From IMG/VR virus record IMGVR_UViG_3300019776_000549, positions 1 through 26,866 of that record: 26,866 nucleotides of DNA. One strand, written 5' to 3'. The notes below the pieces were generated by a model. It was not told the DNA's origin. It made no database searches and saw nothing but the letters and a program-made list of their open reading frames with translations. This document shows, piece after piece, positions 13,735 to 19,958 of this stretch. A program made the translations under genes and the position numbers. The number at the start of each line of letters is the position of its first letter. Positions within the stretch are counted from its first letter, which is position 1. The DNA is from a virus.

Positions 13735-13778
13735 TTCAAACCAATTAGACCAAAAAATTAATTTATTTTTCATCAAAT

Positions 13779-13810
13779 TTGCTTTTTATATTAATTAATT
13801 AATATATTTG
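13779..13810 (+). promoter_or_regulatory. Early promoter 1 with internal palindromic operator
   Basis: TTG at 13779-13781 (part of TTTG) is 21 bases from TATATTTG at 13803-13810, a full match to the Bacteroidota promoter. The spacer contains an 18-bp sequence at 13785-13802 built on the palindrome TTAATTAATTAA, which is identical to the one in the promoter at 19527-19556. It drives the operon beginning at 13833, 22 bases downstream. Confidence 0.78.
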
Positions 13811-19517: not shown

Positions 19518-19526
19518 AGTTTTTGC

Positions 19527-19556
19527 TTGTTTATATTAATTAATTAAGTAATTTTG
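19527..19556 (+). promoter_or_regulatory. Early promoter 2 with the same internal operator
   Basis: TTG at 19527-19529, 19 bases of spacer, then TAATTTTG at 19549-19556 match the Bacteroidota promoter. The 18 bases at 19530-19547 are identical to 13785-13802 in early promoter 1, at almost the same distance from the -7 box. It drives the operon from 19581 onward, including the tRNA-like RNA and the recombination genes. Confidence 0.72.
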
Positions 19557-19807: not shown

Positions 19808-19958
19808 GAAGTAGTGACGGAATTGGATAGACGCTATGGCATTAGGTAGATACGACTCGGTGAGGAGAAATCCCGTGGGAAAAATTTTGGAAGTCAGTTC
19901 GGCTGCTACCCGTTGCGCAAGAAAAGCTACCATACAGGTTCGAATCCTGTCTACTTCA
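19808..19958 (+). ncRNA. tRNA-like RNA: Leu-type 5' half and canonical T arm with an abnormal middle
   Basis: The 5' bases GAAGTAG (19808-19814) pair perfectly with CTACTTC (19951-19957), a 7-bp acceptor stem. Next comes a Leu-like D arm (ACGGAATTGGATAGACG) with T8, A14 and G18-G19, then ATGGC and ATTAGGT, which aligns to the anticodon loop of tRNA-Leu(UAG). The 3' end has a perfect 5-bp T stem (ACAGG/CCTGT) around TTCGAAT. But 86 bases lie between the anticodon loop and the T arm, and no GCCAT closes the anticodon stem. Instead GGTAG/CTACC or ATGG/CCAT can form an extended helix. No CCA is encoded. Not an ordinary tRNA. Confidence 0.6.

Follow-up and report, generated by a model that had tools for sequence, protein, structure and literature searches.

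A conserved tRNA-like RNA without an anticodon arm in a phage genome and its place in a wider class of capped phage RNAs

The RNA and its locus

The window, which is the whole analysed stretch of 26,866 nucleotides of viral DNA, contains a tRNA-like RNA on the plus strand at positions 19808-19958, with a length of 151 nt including the unpaired A19958. The limits of the full element are given by matches to both the Rfam tRNA model and R1, a covariance model built from homologues. It is encoded between small ORFs and the genes of an SbcC-like ATPase, RecT, and an exonuclease, downstream of the replication genes, which agrees with the location ahead of recombination genes given in a preliminary description of this DNA. 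Further upstream, at 19522-19556, there is a possible promoter of the Bacteroidota type (TTTG ... TAATTTTG), which is a consensus match only. The early promoter that had been proposed thus corresponds to a weak match, and sites of this type occur 4 times versus 3.25 times expected, a number not above chance. Near-identical AT-rich promoter-like sequences (TTTGCTT..TTATATTAATTAATTAA..TA..TTTG) are found at 13778-13810 and 19522-19556, and they are possibly a phage promoter that is repeated ahead of two operons. As no obvious Shine-Dalgarno site was detected in the main ORFs (0 of 34), and as the TTTG/TAATTTTG element lies upstream of the RNA, the host likely belongs to the Bacteroidota, as far as can be judged from these sequence signals.

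The two ends of the RNA form an acceptor helix, the 5' strand of which is GAAGTAG (19808-19814) and the 3' strand CTACTTC (19951-19957), with all seven pairs formed and with double-sided changes at each of the seven pairs across the homologues; no CCA is encoded after the 3' strand. The T arm ACAGG-TTCGAAT-CCTGT (19934-19950) has a perfect stem, covaries in the family, and folds in isolation with a z of -3.2, so that both the perfect acceptor and the perfect T arm with TTCGAAT had been described correctly. The D arm (19817-19834) has the expected G18-G19 in its loop, but one of the three pairs of its stem (A.C, C-G, G-C) is an A.C mismatch at a place where the family D arm has GCG/CGC. It is followed by a linker of 10 nt (TATGGCATTA, 19835-19844) that has an equal length and T..TA-type ends in the subfamily members and possibly forms a mini-hairpin of 2-3 bp. 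What had been taken for a seven-base anticodon loop is really the end of this linker together with the first base of the next helix, P4, and not a loop. The 3' strand GCCAT of an anticodon stem is indeed missing, and as there is no anticodon arm, the RNA is unable to decode.

P4 is formed by GGTAG (19845-19849) and its partner CTACC (19927-19931), and it covaries in the relatives, where GGTAG/CTACC, GATAG/CTATC, GGTGG/CCACT, GGCAG/CTGCT, GATCGG/CCGATC, and GACTATG/CATAGTC are found. Of the extended helix in the preliminary description, this GGTAG/CTACC part is conserved and covarying, whereas the ATGG/CCAT part is not conserved. P4 encloses the core (19850-19926), which consists of ATACGACTCGGTGAG, a small hairpin (19864-19873), CCGTGGGAA, and GGAAGTCAGTTCGGCTGCTACCCGTT, and which holds most of the positions that are invariant in the subfamily; the small hairpin (19864-19866 with 19871-19873) shows covariation at all three pairs. 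The minimum-energy fold of the window RNA is no better than that of shuffled sequences (z +0.94), and as such a fold of a single sequence is uninformative, the structural case depends on the comparison with homologues. With this comparison, it is close to certain that the RNA is composed of a tRNA-like cap, a short linker, the variable helix P4, and a core of some 75 nt that hardly varies.

Relation to known RNA models

The Rfam tRNA model (RF00005) matches exactly 19808-19958 with 24.9 bits, which is below the gathering score of 29, and the tRNA features present are the 7-bp acceptor and the 5-bp T stem with a TTCRANY loop. An anticodon arm with its own stem was sought in the RNA and is absent, its place being taken by the linker, P4, and the core. 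A TAG or AAG triplet does occur at the anticodon-like position in nine of nine members, but its G opens P4 and the preceding A closes the linker, for which reason the anticodon reading was rejected and the triplet is taken as a coincidence. ARAGORN with default settings found neither a tRNA nor a tmRNA in the window, and when introns were allowed, it forced a tRNA-Arg with a 55-base intron for which the homologues give no support. The tmRNA model (RF00023) did not match either, and identity with tmRNA is therefore ruled out by Rfam and by the tmRNA mode of ARAGORN. There is also no Rfam match to the catalytic core of group I introns (RF00028) in the window RNA, whereas a positive control, the intron of a phage tRNA-Leu (L238), reached 45.4 bits with Intron_gpI, just below the threshold; this L238 gene (6153-6442) is a phage tRNA-Leu split by a likely group I intron. 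With Rfam 15, the window RNA and four relatives gave no convincing family match beyond the general tRNA.

Relatives sharing the core

Relatives were first found by a sensitive DNA search of plasmids, and then with core-derived patterns in viral contigs. The DNA search yielded two matching pieces on one plasmid of Paenibacillus urinalis, and this locus has the layout of the window RNA, with the common core AGATACGACTCGGTGAG ... CCGTGGGAA ... GGAAGTCAGTTNGGCTGCTACCCGT. The patterns led to L093, L095, L109, L110, L131, L251, and L254 among the viral contigs. An exact 21-base pattern of the 5' part gave zero matches, and a degenerate core pattern gave only chance-level matches in 84,980 species genomes. 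In viral contigs with homologues of the SbcC-like protein or RecT, the element was absent upstream of those genes, and the RNA is thus not tied to the recombination module.

R1 was built from five other phage sequences with the window excluded, and it nevertheless matched the window RNA over its full length (positions 1-159 of 159) with 100.4 bits and an E of 7e-23. In the alignment of these five members, which had not been fitted to the model, there are compensating changes in the acceptor, the T stem, P4, and the core hairpin. In the alignment of nine members, 99.3% of the modelled cells are paired, versus 82% in shuffles and 28-41% with slid partners; changes on both sides occur at 19 of 34 pairs, and covariation was found at 7/7 pairs of the acceptor, 5/6 of P4, 3/3 of the core hairpin, and 4/6 of the T stem. 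The nine-member alignment leans toward the model, to which it had been fitted, but the covariation is already present in the unfitted alignment. The core recurs, with about 60 invariant positions, in the window, the Paenibacillus plasmid, and phages of Bacillota and other phages. The inner core helices ACG/CGT, ACT/AGT, and CAG/CTG and two of the three D-stem pairs show no variation, and these are therefore proposals only.

The check for compensating changes, which the preliminary description had suggested, thus came out positive in the acceptor, the T stem, and the central helix, and a normal tRNA-Leu, which had been named there as speaking against a special RNA, does not replace the element in any of the relatives examined. 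On this comparative evidence, the window RNA is a conserved structured RNA, and nine or more phages and plasmids carry it. Both a broken tRNA and an intron are excluded, because the insert itself is a conserved and compensated fold, and the suggestion of a tRNA broken by insertion had to be given up. The other two readings of the preliminary description, a tRNA mimic and a processed scaffold, may still apply. As the core is common to phages of hosts that probably belong to different phyla, a widely conserved host partner is suggested.

A wider class with a constant cap and changing inserts

A similarity search with L109 led to many phages of Lactobacillus, Enterococcus, Bacillus, and Geobacillus that match only in part, at the RNA ends, and the loci in these phages have the identical cap layout around wholly different inserts, a class that the preliminary description had not recognized. 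Most members of this class were gathered with an exact D-arm pattern. After removal of 25 ordinary tRNA-Leu-like genes, the class counts at least 88 distinct members, the majority of them in phages of Bacillota. Due to this search pattern, the invariance of the D arm is partly built in, but the statistics of the T loop, the acceptor, and P4 are unaffected. Among the 88 members listed, the acceptor has 7/7 pairs in 79, with 60 distinct acceptor sequences, and the T loop, which was outside the search pattern, is TGCAAAT in 74, most members having a G55. The stack of acceptor and T stem comprises 13 bp in 80 of the 88, as opposed to 12 bp in all 25 tRNA controls. The window RNA shares with the class the paired acceptor, the D arm, the P4 helix, the AT connector, and the T arm, and it is together with L251 one of the few members with a canonical 12-bp stack and a TTCGA T loop. 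The P4 helix inside the AT connector has a mean length of 5.25 bp, which falls to 3.62 bp (sd 0.15) if members exchange their inserts. For the four outer helices (acceptor, D, P4, and T), 98.3% pairing was found across 85 members, and 455 cells show double changes versus 124 in shuffled sequences.

The inserts range from 8 to 214 nt and fall into 71 clusters among the 88 members listed, the largest cluster being the core of the window RNA. There are minimal members with virtually no insert, namely a 51-nt RNA of phage phiFL2A (L271, 1497-1547) and a 61-nt RNA (L178, 5678-5738), and the cap thus persists also without a payload. At the other end, the insert of L205 (4903-5104, minus strand) holds a complete tRNA-Lys(UUU), a tRNA nested in a tRNA-like RNA, and nested T arms are found in L224, L162, and L184. 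Tandem members with differing inserts are present in L157 (12085-12387), L095 (7739-8111), and L123 (1303-1630), the weaker match in the latter being the upstream copy, and in the Enterococcus phage vB_Edu_21C1 (L125, 1150-1500) a class member abuts a phage-encoded tmRNA.

In 398 genomes of a single phylum, that of a Ruminococcus, there were four matches above the threshold, of which, judging by their loci, about three are probably class members and one an ordinary tRNA-Leu. A Ruminococcus genome (L265, 1348-1630, minus strand) carries an intact tRNA-Leu gene and, about 160 nt upstream of it, a second copy of its 5' half.

Possible function and alternative explanations

There is an even chance that the RNA of the window is a phage-encoded, trans-acting non-coding RNA of two parts, a cap that is processed like a tRNA and a core that is specific to the phage. 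Such an RNA would be transcribed together with the early genes, and RNase P and RNase Z of the host would trim its ends like those of a pre-tRNA. Besides pre-tRNAs, RNase P is known to process other RNAs that have a tRNA-like top, tmRNA and MALAT-1 among them (PMC4919913). The cap may then protect the RNA and dock a host tRNA-binding factor, which could be RNase P, the CCA-adding enzyme, or an elbow-binding or ribosomal factor, and the core would carry the phage-specific activity, its partner most likely being a host component that is conserved across phyla. The 13-bp stack and the G55 of most members could impair tRNA enzymes, and as the window RNA and L251 differ in this respect, with their 12 bp and TTCGA, the cap may not have a uniform function in the class. 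Likewise, with 71 insert clusters, most payloads need not function alike. An extension to the entire class, in which the cap hijacks the tRNA machinery and the exchangeable domain evolves as an effector, with many functions in a widespread group of anticodon-less phage tRNA mimics, is somewhat less likely than not.

The main rivals are a decoy and a scaffold, and the present evidence separates neither of them cleanly from the two-part RNA that is favoured here. As a pure decoy, the cap alone would titrate a host enzyme or a defence protein that acts on the acceptor end or the elbow of tRNAs, and the insert would be a freely varying spacer. The insert-less minimal members and the many insert clusters fit well to this, as the cap is the sole common feature, but a spacer needs neither a core that is strongly conserved across unrelated phages, as in the window, nor a P4 helix that is maintained by compensation, and a pure decoy is therefore a rather improbable explanation, albeit one to be taken seriously. 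Engineered tRNA scaffolds are used for expressing recombinant RNA, and as a natural tRNA scaffold of this kind, the cap would be a mere stabilizer of interchangeable payload RNAs. This would account for the constancy of the cap, the swapping of inserts, and the complete tRNA-Lys as an insert in L205, but payload-less members persist, and the near-uniform TGCAAAT T loop and the 13-bp stack of most members are superfluous for a mere stabilizer, which makes it unlikely that the cap does nothing else.

Alternatively, the RNA could be cis-acting punctuation, with a cut by RNase P or RNase Z that divides the phage transcript at a module boundary, in the window between the small ORF and the gene of the SbcC-like protein. 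In 30 class loci whose choice did not depend on their gene content, the first upstream ORF with at least 100 codons encodes a late transcription activator in 11 cases, and in phiFL2A the minimal RNA lies between ArpU and the gene just before the large terminase, both of which would suit such a role. The remaining neighbours are varied, however, and include lysis, SSB, primase, terminase, DNA polymerase, tail, and other genes, and a conserved core would not be needed for a cut, so that punctuation has only a small probability. The varied neighbours rather indicate an RNA that acts independently, in trans, and often is encoded at module boundaries. The related idea of a late-operon leader appeared strong in a gene-length-biased sample and was abandoned with the 11 of 30 in the unselected sample. 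A tRNA-Leu gene with an insertion or intron is hardly conceivable and is refuted as far as the sequence allows: although the 5' half is tRNA-Leu-like and ARAGORN can force an intron-bearing tRNA-Arg, no pair of exons gives an anticodon stem and a variable arm, the insert folds by itself and is conserved in nine members, and a group I match like that of the L238 intron is lacking.

Significance and comparison with known systems

Mimicry of tRNA has been described before in tmRNA, in Y RNAs, and in plant viruses. A large class of anticodon-less tRNA mimics of DNA phages with a constant top and a swapped remainder is apparently undescribed: the class members checked are without annotation in public records, and the open-access literature, to which the search was confined with subscription journals outside its scope, contains no description. 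Such RNAs are skipped by tRNA finders and left unannotated in the public records examined, and the class has thus been overlooked. If host tRNA enzymes cut and hold the cap, the class would offer a direct route to the question of how tRNA handling is exploited by phages, and it would also be a natural equivalent of the engineered tRNA scaffold.

Like in ordinary phage tRNA-Leu, there is a GTGGCGGAATNGGTAGACGC-type D arm and the acceptor/T layout in the window RNA, but while the tRNA controls have the ordinary tRNA length and their 12-bp stack in all 25 cases, the window RNA has neither an anticodon arm nor a variable arm. The tRNA-like domain of tmRNA (RF00023) resembles it in having a tRNA acceptor and T arm and a long helix to another domain that replaces the anticodon arm. 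The resemblance to tmRNA that had been pointed out in the preliminary description is one of layout only, as neither Rfam nor ARAGORN recognizes a tmRNA, and the window RNA differs in its paired D arm.

YrlA, a bacterial Y RNA, is likewise a non-coding RNA of bacteria and phages that mimics the top of a tRNA. Y RNAs are circularly permuted relative to tRNA (PMC11472068), whereas the acceptor helix of the window RNA is formed by its 5' and 3' ends. Identity with YrlA is ruled out by this permutation of its tRNA-like part and by the lack of any such Rfam match for the window RNA even at an E of 10. The mascRNA that is derived from MALAT1 is tRNA-like, has no decoding role, and is excised from a longer transcript by tRNA-processing enzymes. 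The first two properties are shared by the window RNA, and an excision by tRNA enzymes, known for mascRNA, would be expected here; mascRNA, however, is eukaryotic, much shorter, and without an inserted conserved core.

ROOL and GOLLD are structured phage RNAs of unknown function that often occur near tRNA genes (PMC12286853). In the Lactobacillus phage Lb338-1 (L117), a ROOL RNA at 1875-2447 is followed 62 nt downstream by a class member at 2510-2612. In comparison to the window RNA, ROOL and GOLLD have no sequence match, are far larger, and do not possess a tRNA cap.
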